A stretch of DNA of 35,187 bases from Armatimonadota bacterium. Lineage in GTDB: Bacteria; Sysuimicrobiota; Sysuimicrobiia; Sysuimicrobiales; Humicultoraceae. Under the pieces are notes generated by a model. It saw only the letters and a list, made by a program, of their open reading frames with translations, had not been told where the DNA came from and did no database searches. Every line of letters starts with the position of its first letter. The first letter of the stretch is position 1. The translations under genes and the position numbers were made by a program. The stretch is from assembly GCA_031459715.1 (NCBI GenBank), contig JAVKIA010000027.1:1-35187 (forward strand). Direction: 5' to 3'. Shown here piece after piece: positions 20,557 to 29,038 of this stretch.

Positions 20557-21360
20557 ATGGCGCAGACCCGTCTTGCCCCCCCATCGGTGCGGTGGGGGTT
20601 TCGCTTTACTGCCCGAGACATCACCGTCACCGGGGCCCTGGGGGCGGTGGCGATCGTCCTGGGGCTGGTGCCGGGGCTGGGGTTCATCCCGGCGCCCACC
20701 CCGGCCGGTGCCGCGACCACCATGCACATCCCGGCCATCATCGCCGGCGTGCTGGAAGGCCCGGTGGTGGGAGCGCTGGTGGGCGGCATCTTCGGGTTTT
20801 TCTCCTTCACCCGGGCAACGATCCCCATCTTCAAGAATCCGGTGATCGCTTTTCTGCCCCGCATCCTCATCGGCGTGGTGGCCTTTCTGGTCTTCCGGGC
20901 GCTGCTGGCGCGCTACGCCCGCCCCTTCGCGGCGCTGGTGGTAGGGGCGGCGCTGTTTACCGTCCTGGGGCCCGGGGCGCGCGACTTCGAGTCAGCCTAC
21001 GCCGCGGGCAGGGTGAAGCCCAGCTGGCTCGTGGATGCCTACCATCAGGTGGCGGCCCTCACCAGCCCCTCCCTGGCGGCGGCCCTCCTCCTGGGGGTGC
21101 TGGGGATCGCGCTGACCTACTGGCTCCTGCGCGGGGAGAACGCGGCGCCCGCGGCAGCGGCGGTGGCAGGGACGCTGACCAACACCGTCGGCGTGCTCAC
21201 GCTCACGGTGGCCTTCGGCTTCATCCCCAGCGGCGCCGCCTTCGTCATCGGCGCCACCCACGGCCTGCCGGAGGTGGTTCTGGCGGTGCTGGTCACCGTG
21301 CCCGTCTACCGGGCGGTGAGCGCGCTCAGGAGCGGGAAGGGACGGGAGGAGAGCAGATGA
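20557..21360 (+). CDS. ECF transporter S component, probably pantothenate-specific
   Basis: A 267-aa multi-pass membrane protein. TTMHIPAIIAGVLEGPVVG followed by GGIFGFFSF is a conserved segment of ECF S components that bind vitamins, and ALPRILIG-type residues (FLPRILIGVVAF) follow. Its stop overlaps the ATG of coaX (ATGA), so it is co-translated with pantothenate kinase; that link, not the sequence alone, suggests pantothenate as substrate (PanT-like). The ATG at 20557 has GGAGGGAAGG upstream. The first ~25 residues are a soluble extension. Confidence 0.82.
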   Translation: MAQTRLAPPSVRWGFRFTARDITVTGALGAVAIVLGLVPGLGFIPAPTPAGAATTMHIPAIIAGVLEGPVVGALVGGIFGFFSFTRATIPIFKNPVIAFLPRILIGVVAFLVFRALLARYARPFAALVVGAALFTVLGPGARDFESAYAAGRVKPSWLVDAYHQVAALTSPSLAAALLLGVLGIALTYWLLRGENAAPAAAAVAGTLTNTVGVLTLTVAFGFIPSGAAFVIGATHGLPEVVLAVLVTVPVYRAVSALRSGKGREESR

Positions 21361-22178
21361 GCGACTCCCTGCTGCTGGCGCTGGACATCAACAACACGCA
21401 GATCAAGATCGGCCTCTATGCGGGGGCCGACCTCCTGCACCACTGGCGGGTGGCCACCGACCGGGAGAAGACGGCCGACGAGTACGCCATGCTGCTGCGT
21501 GCACTGTTCGCCTCGGTGGGGCGCTCCCTGGAGGAGGTGAGCGGGGTGGGGATCTCCTCGGTGGTCCCTCCCCTGCTGGACACCATGGACCGTCTCTCCC
21601 GCACCTACCTGCGCACGGTGCCGCTGGTGGTGGGGCCGGGGGTGCGCACCGGGATGCGCATCCTCTATGAGAACCCCAAGGAGGTAGGTGCGGACCGTAT
21701 CTGTAACGCCGTAGCCGCCTACGCCAGGTACGGCGGTCCGGCCATCGTGGTGGACCTGGGCACGGCCACCACCTTTTCCGTGGTCTCCGCCGAGGGGGAC
21801 TTTCTGGGCGGGGCCATCGCTCCGGGGATCGGTATCTCCGTAGACGCCCTGGCGGAGCACGCGGCGCAGCTCCACCGGGTGGAGCTGGTCCGCCCGCGCC
21901 AGGCCATCGGCCGCTCCACGGTGGCGGCCATGCAGGCCGGGATCCTCTTTGGCTTCGTCGGGCAGGTGGAGGAGCTCCTGCGGCGAATGCGAGAGGAGCT
22001 AGGGACCCCGGCGGTGGCCATTGCCACGGGCGGGTGGGCAGAGCTGATACTGCCAGAGCTGCGCACCGTGCAGCATCACGCGCCGCTTTTGGGCCTGGAA
22101 GGCCTGCGCATCATCTACGAGCGGAACCGCGAGGCGGTGGTCCCCCTGCGAGAGGAGCGGGTGCTGCGTGGCTCCTGA
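21357..22178 (+). CDS. coaX: Type III pantothenate kinase
   Basis: A 273-aa ASKHA-fold kinase phosphorylating pantothenate in the first step of CoA synthesis. The phosphate-binding DINNTQIKIG is near residue 9. GADRICNAVAAY precedes the second phosphate motif DLGTATTF near residue 131, and GGAIAPGI follows. Type III enzymes are not inhibited by CoA and need a monovalent cation. The open frame continues far upstream, but ATG 21357 overlaps the preceding stop and starts exactly at the family N-terminus. The next gene begins 11 bases before its stop. Confidence 0.95.
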   Translation: MSDSLLLALDINNTQIKIGLYAGADLLHHWRVATDREKTADEYAMLLRALFASVGRSLEEVSGVGISSVVPPLLDTMDRLSRTYLRTVPLVVGPGVRTGMRILYENPKEVGADRICNAVAAYARYGGPAIVVDLGTATTFSVVSAEGDFLGGAIAPGIGISVDALAEHAAQLHRVELVRPRQAIGRSTVAAMQAGILFGFVGQVEELLRRMREELGTPAVAIATGGWAELILPELRTVQHHAPLLGLEGLRIIYERNREAVVPLREERVLRGS

Positions 22179-23142
22179 GCAGACTTCCCCAGGCGCGGCG
22201 GGCGCAGCTCCAGGTACCGCAGGGGCGGCCCCGCCGCGCCCCCTGCACGTGGTCAGCCTCAGCCTGGGCTCGCCCACCCGCGACCACCGCGTCCGGCTCA
22301 CCCTGCTGGGGCGGGAGGTGCTGGTGGAGCGCGTGGGCGTGGAGAGCCTGGCCGCCTACCGGCGGCGCCTGCTGGAACTCGACGGCAAGGTGGACGCCAT
22401 CGGCATCGGCGGCGCAAACCTGGCGCTCAGTGCCGGTAGCCGCACCTACCCCATCCGTGATGTGGTGCGCCTGGTGCAGGGCATCCGCACCCCGGTGGTG
22501 GACGGCAGCGGCCTGAAGCGCCTGCTGGAGAAGCAGATCATCCTGGAGATCCTGCCGCGGGACTACGGGGTGGATTTCCGCGGCAAGCGGGTCCTCCTGG
22601 TCAGCTCCGTGGATCGCTACGGCATGGCCGAGGCCTTCACCCAGGCGGGGGCGGATGTGCGCTTCGGCGACTTCATGTTTGCGCTGGGCCTGCCCATCAG
22701 CATGCGCGGCCTGACCACGGTCAAGGTGCTGGCGGCCATTCTGCTGCCCGTCCTCACCCGGCTGCCCTTCACCTGGCTTTACCCCACGGGCGACAAGCAG
22801 GAGGTGATTACACCCAGGTTTGGCAAGGCCTACGCCTGGGCCGAAGTCCTGGCGGGCGACTTCCACTTCATTCGCCGCTACATGCCCGAGGACCTGCGCG
22901 GCAAGATCATCATCACCAACACCCTCACCGTCCAGGATGTGGAGGAACTGCGGCGCCGCGGGGTGCGCATGATCGTCACCCCCTCGCCGAACCTGGAAGG
23001 GCGGTCCCTGGCCACCAACGCCGTGCAGGCCATGCTGGTGGCCCTGGCGGGGCGGCGGCCGGAGGAGCTGACGCCGCAGGACTATCTGGAGCTGCTGGAC
23101 CGGATCGGCTTCCGCCCCCGCGTCGAGCTGCTCAACCCGTAG
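22168..23142 (+). CDS. Conserved protein of a family annotated as quinate 5-dehydrogenase
   Basis: A 324-aa protein, probably of two Rossmann-like halves. A low-complexity Ala/Pro/Gly N-terminus (about residues 1-25) is followed by VVSLSLGSPTRDHRV and GIGGANLAL. A second half contains GKRVLLVSSVDRYGMAEA, then GDFHFIRRYMP and IIITNTLTVQDVEELRRRGV. I recall relatives labelled quinate 5-dehydrogenase, but I see no evidence for that reaction. The GTG at 22168 overlaps coaX by 11 bp and has GAGGAGCGGG upstream. It is followed 13 bases later by an acyl-ACP-reductase-like gene, suggesting a shared role. Confidence 0.6.
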   Translation: MAPEQTSPGAAGAAPGTAGAAPPRPLHVVSLSLGSPTRDHRVRLTLLGREVLVERVGVESLAAYRRRLLELDGKVDAIGIGGANLALSAGSRTYPIRDVVRLVQGIRTPVVDGSGLKRLLEKQIILEILPRDYGVDFRGKRVLLVSSVDRYGMAEAFTQAGADVRFGDFMFALGLPISMRGLTTVKVLAAILLPVLTRLPFTWLYPTGDKQEVITPRFGKAYAWAEVLAGDFHFIRRYMPEDLRGKIIITNTLTVQDVEELRRRGVRMIVTPSPNLEGRSLATNAVQAMLVALAGRRPEELTPQDYLELLDRIGFRPRVELLNP

Positions 23143-23155
23143 TCCTCGACGTCCG

Positions 23156-24274
23156 ATGGGGGAACCGGGCCGTTTCGCCTTCGTCCTCCACCCGCTGGCC
23201 GTGGCCGACTTCGCCCGTAAGTACCCCCCGCTGCGTCTTGCTCCGCCGCGGGCGCTGGAGTGGGTGGCGCGCTTGGTCCCGCCGCTGGTCGCCGCCCGCA
23301 TCACCGGGATCCGCTCGCTCACAGGCGCAACCGCGGAGGGGTGGTTCATCGGCCTGCCCCTGACCACCCGCGTCCTGTTGGCCAGCGACCCCGAATTCGT
23401 CTACCACCGCCTGGTGCAGTGCGGCCACCTGGCGCAACGCCTGGGGGCGGGGATTTTGGGCCTGGGCGCCTTCACCAAGGTCGTGGGCGACGCCGGGGCG
23501 ACAGTGGCGCAGCGGCTGCCCATCGCCGTGACCACCGGCAACTCCTACACCGCCGCCACCGCCGTGGAGGGGGCGTTGCTGGCGGCTGCACGCATGGAGA
23601 TTGACCTGCCGCGGGCCCATGCCCTGGTGGTCGGCGCTTCCGGGGCTGTAGGGACCGTCTGCAGCCAGCTGCTGGCGCCGCACGTGGGGACGCTGACGCT
23701 GGCGGCCCGTTCCGTGGAGCGCCTGGAGGCCCTGGCGGAGCGGCTGCGCGCCGCCCGCGACCGCAGTCCCGCCGTGCAGGTGACCACCGACCTGCGCCGT
23801 GCCCTGGCTCGGGCAGACCTCGTCCTCACCGTCTCCTCCGCTACGGACGTGCTCATCCAGCCCCGGGACCTGCGTCCTGGGGCCGTGGTCTGCGACGTGG
23901 CCCGGCCCCGCAATGTCTCCCGCCTGGTCTACCAGCAGCGGGACGACGTACTGGTCATCGACGGAGGGGTGATAGAGGTGCCAGGCGAGGTCCAGTTCGG
24001 CCTGGACTTCGGCTTCCCTCCGCGCACCTGCGAGGCCTGCATGGCGGAGACCATGGTGCTGGCGCTGGAGGGACGGTACGAGGATTACACCGTGGGGCGA
24101 GAGATCGCCCTGGAGCGCGTGCGAGAGATCGAGACGCTGGCCCGCCGCCACGGCTTTCGCCTGGCCGGATTCCGGCGATTCGAGCGGGCGATCTCGGAGG
24201 AGGAGGTAGAGCGGATAAAGGCCGCGGCGCGCCGCCCCGCCCCATTGTCAGGCGCGGCCTTCTATGGTATGTAA
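23156..24274 (+). CDS. Acyl-ACP reductase (AAR)-like dehydrogenase, COG5322 type
   Basis: A 372-aa protein that lines up along its length with cyanobacterial long-chain acyl-[acyl-carrier-protein] reductase. Matching elements are LGAFTKVV, TTGNSYTA, the NADPH-binding VGASGAVG (G160-x-x-G163-x-x-G166), DGGVIEVPG and the C-terminal LARRHGF. CMAETMVLALEG contains Cys295, equivalent to the catalytic cysteine of AAR (Cys294 in Synechococcus). AAR reduces acyl-ACP to fatty aldehyde. The partner aldehyde-deformylating oxygenase is not in the window. The ATG at 23156 fits the family N-terminus, but no Shine-Dalgarno is visible, so coupling to the upstream gene is likely. Confidence 0.75.
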   Translation: MGEPGRFAFVLHPLAVADFARKYPPLRLAPPRALEWVARLVPPLVAARITGIRSLTGATAEGWFIGLPLTTRVLLASDPEFVYHRLVQCGHLAQRLGAGILGLGAFTKVVGDAGATVAQRLPIAVTTGNSYTAATAVEGALLAAARMEIDLPRAHALVVGASGAVGTVCSQLLAPHVGTLTLAARSVERLEALAERLRAARDRSPAVQVTTDLRRALARADLVLTVSSATDVLIQPRDLRPGAVVCDVARPRNVSRLVYQQRDDVLVIDGGVIEVPGEVQFGLDFGFPPRTCEACMAETMVLALEGRYEDYTVGREIALERVREIETLARRHGFRLAGFRRFERAISEEEVERIKAAARRPAPLSGAAFYGM

Positions 24275-24490: not shown

Positions 24491-24505
24491 GTGGGGGTGA
24501 AGACA

Positions 24506-25450
24506 ATGCACGGCAAGAAGTTGTGGATCCCGGCAGCGTGGATTCTGGCCGTTGCGTTTCTGGCTGCGGCTACCGGACTTGCGGCTGCGCCCACCGGGCT
24601 TCCGGCCCTGGCCGCCCAGGCTCAGCAGGTACGGACGCTGGGCCGGACCCAGGTCCTGGTAGACGCTGCCTGGCTGGCTGCCAACCTGACCGGGCCCGAC
24701 CTGCGCATCCTGGACCTGAGCGGCACCAGGGAGGCCTACGGACGAGGCCACCTGCCCGGGGCCGTGTACGCCTCCGTCACCACCGAGCTCGTCGATCCCA
24801 CCCACCGGATCAGAGGCATGGCACCCACCAGGGAGCAGTTCCAGGCGCTCATGCGGCGGCTGGGAGTGGGGAACACCGACAGCGTCGTCCTCTACGACGA
24901 AGGCAGGAGCCTGCAGGCAGCCCGGGCGTTCTGGATCTTCAAGCTCTACCGGCACGAGCGGGTGGCGGTCCTCGACGGCGGCAGCGGGAAGTGGGGGGCG
25001 GAAGGGCGGCCTCTGGTGACAGAGGTGCCCAACATTACCCCTTCAGCCTACGTAGCCGGGGAACGGGATAACACCATCGAGGCCACCGCAGACTACATTC
25101 GAGCCAGGCTGGGCAAGGCGCTCCTCCTGGATGTCCGCGGCCCCAGGGAGTATGCGGGGCTGGACGTGAGGGCGGCCCGGGGCGGGCACATCCCCGGGGC
25201 GGTGAACGTGGAGTGGACGCTGGCCACCAATGCGGACGGGACGTTCAAGGCCACCGCGGACCTTCGGGCGCTGTACGCCCGGGCCGGTGTGGCCAGGGAT
25301 CGAGAGATCATCGTCTACTGCCAGACGGGCGTACGCGCCGCCCACTCGTGGTTCGTGCTCAAGTACCTGCTGGGCTACCCTCAGGTGCGCAACTACGACG
25401 GGAGCTGGGAGGAGTGGGGGAACCGGCCCGACCTTCCGGTGCAGAGGTGA
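24506..25450 (+). CDS. Exported two-domain rhodanese (sulfurtransferase)
   Basis: A 314-aa thiosulfate or 3-mercaptopyruvate sulfurtransferase. An N-terminal signal (basic MHGKK, then a long hydrophobic run to about residue 35) puts it outside the cytoplasmic membrane. The first rhodanese domain has Asp in place of the active Cys (LYDEGRS), as is usual for the structural domain. The second has Cys272 in YCQTGVRAA, the sulfur-accepting residue. The ATG at 24506 follows a GGGGGTGA site; GTG at 24491 is less likely. Its stop overlaps the start of the YeeE-type transporter gene (GTGA). Confidence 0.9.
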   Translation: MHGKKLWIPAAWILAVAFLAAATGLAAAPTGLPALAAQAQQVRTLGRTQVLVDAAWLAANLTGPDLRILDLSGTREAYGRGHLPGAVYASVTTELVDPTHRIRGMAPTREQFQALMRRLGVGNTDSVVLYDEGRSLQAARAFWIFKLYRHERVAVLDGGSGKWGAEGRPLVTEVPNITPSAYVAGERDNTIEATADYIRARLGKALLLDVRGPREYAGLDVRAARGGHIPGAVNVEWTLATNADGTFKATADLRALYARAGVARDREIIVYCQTGVRAAHSWFVLKYLLGYPQVRNYDGSWEEWGNRPDLPVQR

Positions 25451-26697
25451 GGCCGGTGACCGGGCCAGGACCGGTGACCGGCCCGGGGCCGGGCCAGATG
25501 GACCTGCCGCGGATGCTGGCCCGCGGTGCCAGTGCGCTTGTGCTGGCCATTGCAGTGGCGACGCTCACCTCCAGGGCCGACCCTCGGGCGGGGCTGTTCT
25601 GGCTGTTCGGATTGGGCTTTGGCTTCGTGCTGCAGCGCAGCCGCTTCTGCTTCGCCTCAGCCTTCCGCGATCTCTTCCTGTTCGGGCACGGCCGGGTGAT
25701 GCGCGGTATTCTGGGAGGTCTGGCCATTGCCACCGTTGGCTTTACCGTGCTCATGGCGCGGATGGTCCCGGACCCCGGCCTGGGGGCCGTCGCACCCGAG
25801 GCGCACGTGATCCCGCTGGGCATCCATGTGGCTGTAGGCGGCCTGCTGTTCGGGACAGGCATGGTCCTGGCAGGTGGGTGTGTCTCCGGCTCGATGTACC
25901 GCATCGGGGAGGGCTACGTGGCTTCGGCGGTGGCCCTGGCGGGTATCGTGGCCGGGTTGGGTCTGGGAGCGCACTCGTGGAACTTCTGGTGGCGGGCGAG
26001 CATCGGTCGCAGCCCGCTGCTGTGGCTGCCGCGCTTCGGTGGATACGGTGTGGCGGTGGCTGTGACCCTGGCCCTCCTCGCCGCTGGTTACCTCCTGATC
26101 ACCTGGTGGGAATCCCGTCAGGGCTACGTCCTGCCGGAGCCTCCTCCCCCCTCAGTCGGTCAGGGCTTCTACGGACGGCTGGAAGCCACCCTGCGGGCCT
26201 TGCTGGTGCGTGGGTGGTCGCCCCTGGTCGGGGGCGCGGCCCTGGGGACGCTCAACGTCTTCCTCTACACGGCGCACATGCCCTGGGGGGTCACCGGCGA
26301 GATCTCCCGGTGGGCCATCGGGCTCCTCAATGCGGCCGGATGGAGCCCCGGACCCCTGAAAGGCACGGAGGAGCTGGCGGCGTGCGCGCTGTCCGCCAGC
26401 GCCGGTCCCTGGCTCACCCACACCCTGACCCTCAACCTGGGCATGGTGGCGGGGTCATTCGCCGCCGCGCTGCTGGCCGGAGAGTTCAGGGTGCGCCGGC
26501 CCAAAGAACGGCGCCGCTACCTGCAGGCGTTGGGCGGCGGAGTCCTCATGGGCTACGGCGCCACCCTGGCCATGGGATGCACCCTGGGGGCGTTCTTCTC
26601 GGCCGTCCCCTCGCTGGCTCTCAACGGCTGGGTATTTGGACTGGCCCTGGCCGCCGGGGCGTGGGTGGGGGTGCAGGTCATCAGGCGCATTCCCTGA
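25447..26697 (+). CDS. YeeE/YedE (TsuA-like) sulfur transporter
   Basis: A 416-aa integral membrane protein with about ten helices. Two internal half-repeats each carry the conserved Cys motif of thiosulfate channel TsuA: GGCVSGSMYR (Cys145) and MGCTLGAFFSA (Cys378). The family imports thiosulfate or similar sulfur species, handing sulfur along these cysteines. The GTG at 25447 overlaps the previous stop; ATG at 25498 is an alternative that would remove a Pro-Gly-rich lead encoded by two repeats. It sits between an exported rhodanese and tusA, strongly supporting a sulfur role. Confidence 0.88.
   Translation: MRPVTGPGPVTGPGPGQMDLPRMLARGASALVLAIAVATLTSRADPRAGLFWLFGLGFGFVLQRSRFCFASAFRDLFLFGHGRVMRGILGGLAIATVGFTVLMARMVPDPGLGAVAPEAHVIPLGIHVAVGGLLFGTGMVLAGGCVSGSMYRIGEGYVASAVALAGIVAGLGLGAHSWNFWWRASIGRSPLLWLPRFGGYGVAVAVTLALLAAGYLLITWWESRQGYVLPEPPPPSVGQGFYGRLEATLRALLVRGWSPLVGGAALGTLNVFLYTAHMPWGVTGEISRWAIGLLNAAGWSPGPLKGTEELAACALSASAGPWLTHTLTLNLGMVAGSFAAALLAGEFRVRRPKERRRYLQALGGGVLMGYGATLAMGCTLGAFFSAVPSLALNGWVFGLALAAGAWVGVQVIRRIP
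25453..25481. repeat. Twin 11-bp palindromes
   Basis: CCGGTGACCGG occurs at 25453-25463 and 25471-25481, 18 bp apart and each self-complementary around one base. They lie between two candidate start codons of the transporter and would encode a Pro-Val-Thr-Gly repeat. Confidence 0.55.
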
Positions 26698-26736
26698 GGG
26701 GAGGCGCAGGCCAGACTGGAGGCGGAGGTGCTGTGC

Positions 26737-27015
26737 ATGGAGCTGGATGTGCGGGGCGAGATCTGCCCCTATCCGATGATGAAGACGGTGGAGGTCCTGC
26801 GGACGCTGCCCGAAGGCGAGGTCCTTGAGGTGCTCACCGACCATCCGCCCGCGCTGGAGTCCATCCCCTTCTACACCTCGCGGCTCGGCTACCGCTGCGC
26901 CATCAAAGAGGACGCGCCCGGCCAGTGGCGGATCCGGATCACACCCGCGGCGGCACAAAGCACGGATGCCCGGGTGCCCGGGGGAGAGGTCCGGGGCGCG
27001 GGGAGTCAGCCGTGA
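26737..27015 (+). CDS. tusA: TusA-family sulfur carrier
   Basis: A 92-aa small protein whose signature CPYP-M-K segment places the sulfur-carrying Cys at residue 10 (GEICPYPMMKT). TusA proteins carry persulfide between sulfur enzymes; the version next to YeeE (YeeD/TsuB) accepts sulfur from the thiosulfate channel. The last ~20 residues are a hydrophilic tail beyond the usual domain. The ATG at 26737 has GGCGGAGG eight bases upstream. Its stop overlaps the GTG of the moeZ-type gene. Confidence 0.92.
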   Translation: MELDVRGEICPYPMMKTVEVLRTLPEGEVLEVLTDHPPALESIPFYTSRLGYRCAIKEDAPGQWRIRITPAAAQSTDARVPGGEVRGAGSQP

Positions 27016-28163
27016 GCGTGACCACGCACCTTCTGAGCAACGAGCAGCTGCAGCGCTACTCCCGCCAGGTGATCCTGGCTGAGGTGGGCGTGGGCGGGCA
27101 GCGCCGGCTGCTGGACAGCAAGGTGCTGATCATCGGTGCAGGGGGGCTGGGATCGCCCGCGGCGCTCTACCTAGCCGCCGCCGGCGTCGGCACCCTGGGG
27201 ATCGTGGACGGCGACCGGGTGGACCTGACCAACCTGCACCGGCAGATTCTCCACCACAGTCGTGACCTCGGCCGGCCGAAGACCCAGACTGCCCGCCGCA
27301 CCATCGAGGAGATCAATCCCGATGTGACCGTGATCCCCTTTCAGACCACCCTGACCAGGGCCAATGCCCTGGACATCCTCAAAGATTTCGACGTGATCCT
27401 AAACGGCAGCGACAACTTCCCCACCCGCTACCTGGTCAACGACGCCTGCGTCCTGCTGGGAAGGCCCCTGGTGGACGCCAGCGTGCTGCGCTGGGAGGCC
27501 CAGTTCACCGTCTACCTGCCGGGGCGGGGCTGCTACCGTTGCCTCTTCCCCACCCCGCCTCCGCCCGGCGCGGTTCCCAGCTGCGCCGAGGCGGGAGTCA
27601 TCGGCGCCGTGGCTGGCTTCATGGGTACGCTGCAGGCCATCGAAGCCGTCAAGATCCTGCTGGGCAAAGATGAGGTTCTGGTCAACCGCCTGCTGCTCTT
27701 CGACGCCCTGGAGGGACGCATGAGCACGCTGCGCTGGAGCCGGAATCCCCACTGCCCGGTCTGCGGGGACCGACCCACTATTCACCAGCTGATCGACTAT
27801 GAGCAGTTCTGCGGGGTGCCGGGTCGGCACGCGGCAGAGGCAGTGGCCCCCGCCGTCGTGGAGGTCTCTGTGGAGGAGGCGGCCAGGCTGGTGCAGGAGG
27901 AAGGTGCCTTCCTCCTGGACGTGCGCGAGCCCTGGGAATGGGGTCTGGTGCGCATCCCCGGGGCGGTTCTCATTCCAAGAGGCCAGGTGGCGGCACGGGT
28001 CAGCGAGATCCCCCGGGACCCGCCGGTGGTGGTTTACTGCGCGGTTGGGCAGCGCAGTGCTGAGATCACCCTCTGGCTGCGAGAGCGAGGGTACCAGCGC
28101 GCGGTCAACCTGGCGGGAGGGATCACCGCCTGGGCGAACGCGCAGCTGCCGGTGGAGTCTTAG
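27012..28163 (+). CDS. moeZ: E1-like adenylyltransferase/rhodanese fusion (MoeZ/MoeBR type)
   Basis: A 383-aa fusion. The N-terminal ThiF/MoeB domain has the ATP-binding GAGGLGSPAALYLA, DLTNLHRQ and the zinc CxxC pairs CYRC and CPVC. The C-terminal rhodanese domain has Cys343 in YCAVGQRSAE. Such proteins adenylate the C-terminal Gly-Gly of ubiquitin-like carriers (MoaD, ThiS or CysO types) and then load sulfur from the rhodanese Cys. The GTG at 27012 overlaps the tusA stop; GTG at 27018 is possible. No carrier protein gene is in the window. Confidence 0.93.
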   Translation: MSVTTHLLSNEQLQRYSRQVILAEVGVGGQRRLLDSKVLIIGAGGLGSPAALYLAAAGVGTLGIVDGDRVDLTNLHRQILHHSRDLGRPKTQTARRTIEEINPDVTVIPFQTTLTRANALDILKDFDVILNGSDNFPTRYLVNDACVLLGRPLVDASVLRWEAQFTVYLPGRGCYRCLFPTPPPPGAVPSCAEAGVIGAVAGFMGTLQAIEAVKILLGKDEVLVNRLLLFDALEGRMSTLRWSRNPHCPVCGDRPTIHQLIDYEQFCGVPGRHAAEAVAPAVVEVSVEEAARLVQEEGAFLLDVREPWEWGLVRIPGAVLIPRGQVAARVSEIPRDPPVVVYCAVGQRSAEITLWLRERGYQRAVNLAGGITAWANAQLPVES

Positions 28164-28552: not shown

Positions 28553-29038
28553 ATGACGGAGAAGGGGGAGAAAGAGATCATCCTCACCGCCGAGGGCCTG
28601 CGCAGGCTCGAGGAGGAGCTGGAGTACCTGAAGGTGGTCCGGCGAAAGGAGGTAGCCGAGCGGATCAAGGCGGCCAAGGACTTCGGCGACCTTATGGAAA
28701 ACTCCGAGTACGAAGACGCCAAGAACGAGCAGGCCTTCGTGGAGGGGCGGATCCTGCAGCTGGAGACCATGTTGCGCAATGCCAAGGTCATCGACAACAA
28801 CCAGGTCCGCGGGGACCGCGTCTCCGTGGGGTGTACCGTGGTCCTGCAGGACCTGAGCAACGGGGAGCGGCTCTCCTACATGATCGTGGGGTCGGCAGAG
28901 GCCGACCCCGACCGCGACCGGATCAGCAACGAGTCGCCGGTGGGCAAGGCCCTGTTGGGCCGGAAGAAGGGCGATACGGTGGAGATACAGGTCCCCGCGG
29001 GGACGATCCGCTACTCCGTCCTGGACATTCAGGGATAG
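28553..29038 (+). CDS. greA: Transcription elongation factor GreA
   Basis: A 161-aa factor that enters the RNA polymerase secondary channel and stimulates cleavage of backtracked RNA. The N-terminal coiled coil (about residues 12-75) carries the acidic tip [16 protein letters not shown] near residues 45-60, with Asp and Glu in the expected places. The C-terminal FKBP-like domain ends with [11 protein letters not shown] and YSVLDI. The ATG at 28553 has only a weak GAGCCGAG site. The leader holds a terminator-like hairpin and a strong terminator follows the gene. Confidence 0.97.

Follow-up and report, generated by a model that had tools for sequence, protein, structure and literature searches.

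What does a reductase resembling the acyl-ACP reductase (AAR) of Cyanobacteria do in a bacterium outside that phylum, and, if it makes a fatty aldehyde, where would the aldehyde go? Such fatty acyl-ACP reductases have been studied chiefly for cyanobacterial alkanes and in a few natural-product pathways. In this work we have examined a gene of this kind in a window (the whole stretch of DNA that was analysed, 35,187 nucleotides) whose relevant features are collected in Table 1. The reductase open reading frame is confirmed as a real gene, with a coding-like GC content by codon position (0.76/0.52/0.87) and a frame that is kept at 60-83% identity across the order. An orthologue with 83% identity and the same gene order is present in LDXQ01, 'Armatimonadetes bacterium CSP1-3', and CSP1-3 is now Sysuimicrobiota (PMC11604079). 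Judged from this nearest named relative, the window probably comes from a member of Sysuimicrobiota (CSP1-3) or of a closely related lineage; the first-pass annotation had called the gene order Firmicute-like, which is fair as a description, but the nearest named genome is that of CSP1-3.

Table 1. Position of the reductase gene, its conserved segments and its neighbours in the window.
Feature	Position	Strand	Remarks
ECF transporter substrate-specific component, PF12822	20557..21360	+	Upstream member of the conserved order
coaX, type III pantothenate kinase, start approximate	21357..22178	+	Pfam/NCBIfam; conserved upstream neighbour; 11-base overlap with the start of X
X, 324-aa protein, unnamed family	22168..23142	+	Ends 13 bases 5' of the reductase; candidate partner by co-occurrence
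Stand-alone AAR-superfamily reductase (putative acyl-thioester reductase), 372 aa	23156..24274	+	ATG at 23156, stop at 24274; ORF, homology, fold, residues
T-T-G-N segment, T126-N129	23531..23542	+	T126, G128 and N129 in 42/42; T127 in 39/42
GASGAVG dinucleotide loop, G160-G166	23633..23653	+	Equivalent to SeAAR 162GATGDIG168; three glycines in 42/42
C295 codon	24038..24040	+	Aligned with the SeAAR catalytic residue C294; a Cys in 42/42
greA	28553..29038	+	Normally the gene next 3' to the reductase; separated from it here by an insert of four genes

How closely is this protein related to AAR? It had been noted earlier that the match to cyanobacterial AAR extends along its length, and this accords with the sequence comparisons (phmmer 1e-24; family profile 2e-43) and with the AlphaFold2 model (pLDDT 88.9), whose seven best PDB matches by Foldseek are all SeAAR (TM 0.74-0.83; E 2.5e-23; TM by query/target 0.74/0.80 for 6jzy and 0.76/0.83 for 6jzu). 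The model, a check which the first-pass annotation had proposed, has the AAR fold and the catalytic cysteine. The segments TTGN, VGASG and CMAET pointed out at that time are also present, the last of them as ACMAET around C295, and the assignment of this cysteine to the catalytic position was correct. Residue conservation was read from an alignment of 42 stand-alone orthologues, with the SeAAR numbering of PMC7089970. Cys at the C295 position is likewise found in all nine fusions to a PlsY domain and all six fusions to an aminotransferase that we compared. R185 corresponds to R189 of the NADPH phosphate pocket of SeAAR and is invariant (42/42); conservation is only partial at Arg 193 and Arg 314 of the NADP-phosphate site. 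Of the residues of the hydrophobic acyl tunnel in SeAAR (M21, Y23, Y26, Y247 and M279), the last two were compared. The position of SeAAR Y247 is occupied by R250, an Arg in every one of the 42 orthologues; in SeAAR the change Y247A makes the binding of both stearoyl-CoA and the aldehyde-deformylating oxygenase (ADO) undetectable (PMC7089970). The M279 tunnel segment of SeAAR aligns to a gap. Among the ADO contacts, R73 is replaced by D78 (basic in a single one of the 42), R79 by H84 and R118 by Q119, and the equivalent of K80 is basic in all 42. The reductase appears to keep the chemistry, with a partial loss of the dock for ADO.

Full-length homology and the catalytic Cys make the protein a member of the AAR/PigE thioester-reductase superfamily. 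The NCBIfam equivalog for cyanobacterial AAR, TIGR04058, gives it 104.7 bits, under the curated cut-off of 449.7, and that for PigE, NF053554, gives 208.8 bits over the reductase part alone, under a cut-off of 850; neither Pfam nor NCBIfam finds an aminotransferase domain in the frame. In a PDB sequence search PigE (4ppm) comes first, followed by AAR (6jzq/6jzu/6jzz), and a profile of the 42 orthologues scores 190 bits against PigE and 152 against AAR. The description as an AAR homologue stands as far as the superfamily, the catalytic Cys and the lack of ADO are concerned, but the thioester-reductase domain of PigE, and not AAR, is the closest characterised homologue by sequence. Given the low TIGR04058 score, the nearer PigE and the partly lost ADO contacts, together with the absence of ADO from 61 genomes, the reductase is not an AAR orthologue. 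In the open-access literature that was searched we found no characterised member and no tested reaction for the stand-alone clade. The earlier remark that no deformylating oxygenase lies nearby can be extended, as ADO (PF11266) had no match in the window's own genome or in the 61 genomes in a search in which the positive control, Synechococcus elongatus, was matched. We therefore reject ADO-coupled alkane synthesis, and any aldehyde would have another fate.

Is the gene then a cyanobacterial one out of place? A stand-alone orthologue is present in 39 of the 61 genomes (36/43 of the order and 3/18 others, by hand count), and a scan of named genomes gave at least 582 confirmed loci of the clade, whose bearers include, among the matches listed, Sporomusa, Desulforamulus, Carboxydothermus and Sulfobacillus. 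The clade is thus widespread among Bacillota, Sysuimicrobiota and genomes labelled 'Armatimonadetes', and the cyanobacterial framing of the first-pass annotation has to be given up; a transfer from Cyanobacteria is rejected because the gene belongs to a clade with conserved gene order. This order is birA-S58-ECF-coaX-X-AAR-greA-clpC in Sysuimicrobiota and birA-coaX-dusB-HTH8-X-AAR-greA-lysS in Bacillota, HTH8 or X being absent from some loci. HTH8 is a conserved HTH protein of about 176 aa (e.g. L055:3448-3978) that belongs to no named family. In the tree the PlsY fusions form one group (100/100) and the aminotransferase-fused domains another (95/68); both have long branches and lie next to the stand-alone set, whose branches are short. 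Monophyly of the stand-alone clade is recovered in 6% of bootstraps (p-AU 0.29) and is neither supported nor rejected by the tree, because SeAAR, PigE and the fusions are all long-branched. A search of plasmids returned mostly aminotransferase fusions and no stand-alone relative.

Several other features of these loci deserve mention. Between the reductase and greA the window carries a four-gene sulfur cassette (24491-28163) encoding a rhodanese-type sulfurtransferase with a signal-like N-terminus, a YeeE/YedE-type sulfur transporter, TusA and a MoeB/ThiF-rhodanese protein; in a genome of the same genus (G001) greA lies directly 3' of the reductase. The gap between dusB and HTH8 holds, in about 10 loci, a conserved protein of about 330 aa (L067:1428-2426) with no Pfam or NCBIfam match. 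In one genome with X and without an AAR-type reductase the dusB frame is joined to an HflX-type GTPase (L155:2325-4517; 730 aa, by Pfam), and dusB frames of 746-755 aa occur in two more genomes of this kind (L158, L160).

More questions are raised by X, which the first reading of the context missed. X has no family in Pfam or NCBIfam and no credible sequence relative in the PDB by profile, and its model (pLDDT 91.3) has weak fold matches of the Rossmann type (TM <0.5); the idea that it is a distant paralogue of the reductase was rejected on these fold matches and on an hhalign probability of 0.3%. X lies within 45 of 80 named AAR loci, where an automated count found it adjoining AAR in 41, and in L049, L050 and L054, whose ORF starts are over-extended, it is also adjacent by coordinates. 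All 20 AAR-bearing genomes that we checked possess it, 17 of them having been picked for X being outside the examined AAR locus. Among the 61 genomes X is found in 45, namely all 44 with any AAR-type match and G033, which is 72% complete; outside the order it is present in 3/3 reductase bearers and 0/15 non-bearers (chance 1/816, hand count). A count over 199 genomes from the phylum that contains Sporomusa, with thresholds of E 1e-3 for X and E<=1e-30 for AAR-type matches, gave 128 with both, 24 with X only, three with AAR-type only and 44 with neither (Fisher p 5e-23; like the 1/816 above, not corrected for phylogeny). The matches in the three AAR-type-only genomes lie in frames of 873-917 aa; one of these, in G274, was examined and proved to be a fusion with a class III aminotransferase. 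The 24 genomes with X alone imply that X is used without the reductase or with one that went undetected. From this co-occurrence we infer that X is a partner of the reductase in the same pathway.

Could the protein nevertheless be a true long-chain acyl-ACP reductase like cyanobacterial AAR, with general dehydrogenases handling the aldehyde and X an unrelated neighbour? The fold matches AAR over its full length, aldehyde and alcohol dehydrogenases are encoded in CSP1-3 genomes (PMC11604079), and X belongs to an old gene order, birA-coaX-dusB-greA-lysS, in which genes could stay neighbours without any functional tie; the 24 genomes with X and no AAR point the same way. We nevertheless consider this reading rather unlikely, as the protein scores 105 bits against the 450 required by TIGR04058, is nearer to PigE and has an invariant Arg for Y247, and as X co-occurs with the reductase even outside the AAR locus and also where fusions replace it.

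These fusions, which had likewise escaped the first reading although it rightly expected another fate for the aldehyde, suggest what the product might be. Five members of the order (G003, G005, G007, G014 and G015) keep X, and no stand-alone reductase was found in them; each carries a PlsY-AAR fusion with PF02660 in the same frame. This absence is firmest in G005, G007 and G014, because G003 and G015 are less than 80% complete. Directly 3' of X lies greA in G003, G007 and G015, a GTPase ORF (Era-like by eye) separates the two in G005, and in G014 the order is broken after X. Elsewhere the aminotransferase takes the place of PlsY: G275 has the order dusB-X-fusion-lysS with a 903-aa aminotransferase-reductase fusion in the AAR slot, G271 has a 915-aa fusion of this type 5' of both X and a stand-alone AAR, and G068 has an HTH8-X-fusion arrangement. 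The window's own genome holds a paralogue in the form of a PlsY-AAR fusion (G000:C36, L041:5568-10426; PF02660 4.9e-19); downstream of it lie an ORF that carries HTH and class II aldolase domains and a gene for a Zn-dependent alcohol dehydrogenase (Zn-ADH). In G194, of the Sporomusa phylum, a PlsY-AAR fusion also stands beside a Zn-ADH, 43% identical to the former, and no comparable Zn-ADH was found in the flanks examined of the other fusions. Of all the observations this pairing most suggests an alcohol fate for a member of the superfamily; it is not evidence on the product of the window gene itself.

Might the pathway rather be one of ether-lipid or plasmalogen synthesis, in which the aldehyde or alcohol supplies the ether chain? 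The PlsY-like-fused paralogue, which has a Zn-ADH and a class II aldolase domain in its vicinity, would fit, as would an adjacent activase/DUF2229 gene pair of PlsA-like make-up in the same genome (L125:1850-6785, G000:C18). However, the motifs usual for PlsY seem degenerate in the fusion on visual inspection (two more PF02660 matches in this genome are of ordinary PlsY size), and the other genomes of the CSP1-3 order that were searched lack DUF2229 (PF09989) and keep the reductase. Since PF09989 was found in the own genome only, a route via PlsA-like proteins was rejected as a general explanation; we found no lipid data on this point and regard ether-lipid synthesis as improbable.

The COG5322 label, 'predicted amino acid dehydrogenase', presumably also covers the window reductase. 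This label, which is founded on the nucleotide-binding domain, has been used in papers on transaminase fusions for their reductase domains, which are homologous to the window reductase (PMC10829540, PMC6498172), and together with the Pfam match to Shikimate_DH (1.4e-11, in the nucleotide-binding domain) it would make the protein an amino-acid or shikimate-type dehydrogenase. We strongly doubt this: the weak likeness to shikimate dehydrogenase, ornithine cyclodeaminase and mu-crystallin is confined to the nucleotide-binding part, whereas the whole length is matched by AAR and PigE and, in the fold comparison, by the Carmabin TAD, and Cys occupies the AAR catalytic position in 57/57 homologues compared. 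Finally, a regulatory or detoxifying HTH8-X-AAR module of Bacillota that senses or removes acyl thioesters, suggested by at least 38 of 80 loci in which HTH8 lies just 5' of X or AAR, is highly improbable, as the catalytic residues are fully conserved and HTH8 was not found in the 61 relatives including the own genome, a set without a positive control.

We thus return to the reading in which the protein is a Cys-dependent acyl-thioester reductase whose aldehyde enters an amine or alcohol route that has not been described and that involves X; going by the comparisons above, we think this is probably correct. The enzyme would be soluble, probably NADPH-dependent and cysteine-acylating: an acyl group, from ACP or less likely from CoA, would be transferred to C295, and hydride from a dinucleotide bound at the GASGAVG loop would then release the fatty aldehyde. 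The aldehyde would be handed to a downstream enzyme other than ADO, and X may be its receiver or may catalyse an adjacent step. An amine or an alcohol seems the most likely end product, because the reductase unit is fused elsewhere to a class III aminotransferase or to a PlsY-like domain beside a Zn-ADH. That the family is common in Bacillota-like bacteria and nearly always accompanied by X suggests that fatty aldehydes serve a purpose not yet described. Perhaps, and this we put forward tentatively, the reductase and X form the core of an old fatty-aldehyde pathway, widespread in Bacillota-like lineages, in which the reductase occurs in three architectures (stand-alone, aminotransferase-fused and PlsY-fused) and which ends in a long-chain amine or alcohol component of the lipids that is new or has gone unrecognised. 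Since hundreds of Bacillota-like genomes carry this clade, which has the catalytic parts of AAR without the alkane-forming enzyme and is tied to X, a common fatty-aldehyde step may so far lack an assignment. A direct test is within reach, as X and the reductase occur in cultivated species (Sporomusa, Desulforamulus, Carboxydothermus), and the PlsY-reductase fusion offers a tangible link to follow between fatty aldehydes and glycerolipid synthesis.

How does the proposed enzyme compare with known systems? For AAR the sequence of acyl-Cys, hydride transfer and aldehyde release has been demonstrated (PMC7089970), and by analogy the stand-alone clade would follow the same mechanism. Cyanobacterial AAR (TIGR04058; 6jzq, 6jzu, 6jzy, 6jzz) and the reductase have in common the fold, the GxxGxxG and T-T-G-N motifs, the catalytic Cys and the R189 equivalent; they differ in that identity is 27% by structure comparison, Arg replaces Y247, the M279 segment is missing, the ADO-contact R73 is lost and no ADO gene accompanies the reductase in its genome. 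The next best full-length fold match is the Carmabin TAD (PDB 9e4s, 9e4u, 9e50; TM 0.72-0.75 by query length), at 15-17% identity and from a natural-product assembly line. The PlsY glycerol-3-phosphate acyltransferase domain (PF02660) forms the N-terminal part of the other paralogue that this genome encodes and is not part of the window reductase. Thioester reduction by PigE is supported in lysates (PMC8341465), PtTamH was active in a coupled TamA-TamH cascade and gave no product from acyl-CoA (PMC9594044), and for KecF the reductase reaction is predicted (PMC6498172). The N-terminal thioester reductase domain of PigE, from prodigiosin synthesis (NF053554; PDB 4ppm), has the same catalytic Cys as the window reductase, for which the same type of reaction, from thioester to aldehyde, may be proposed. 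Whereas the domains of PigE, TamH and KecF are fused to aminotransferases within natural-product clusters, the window reductase is unfused and its gene lies in an order of housekeeping genes.
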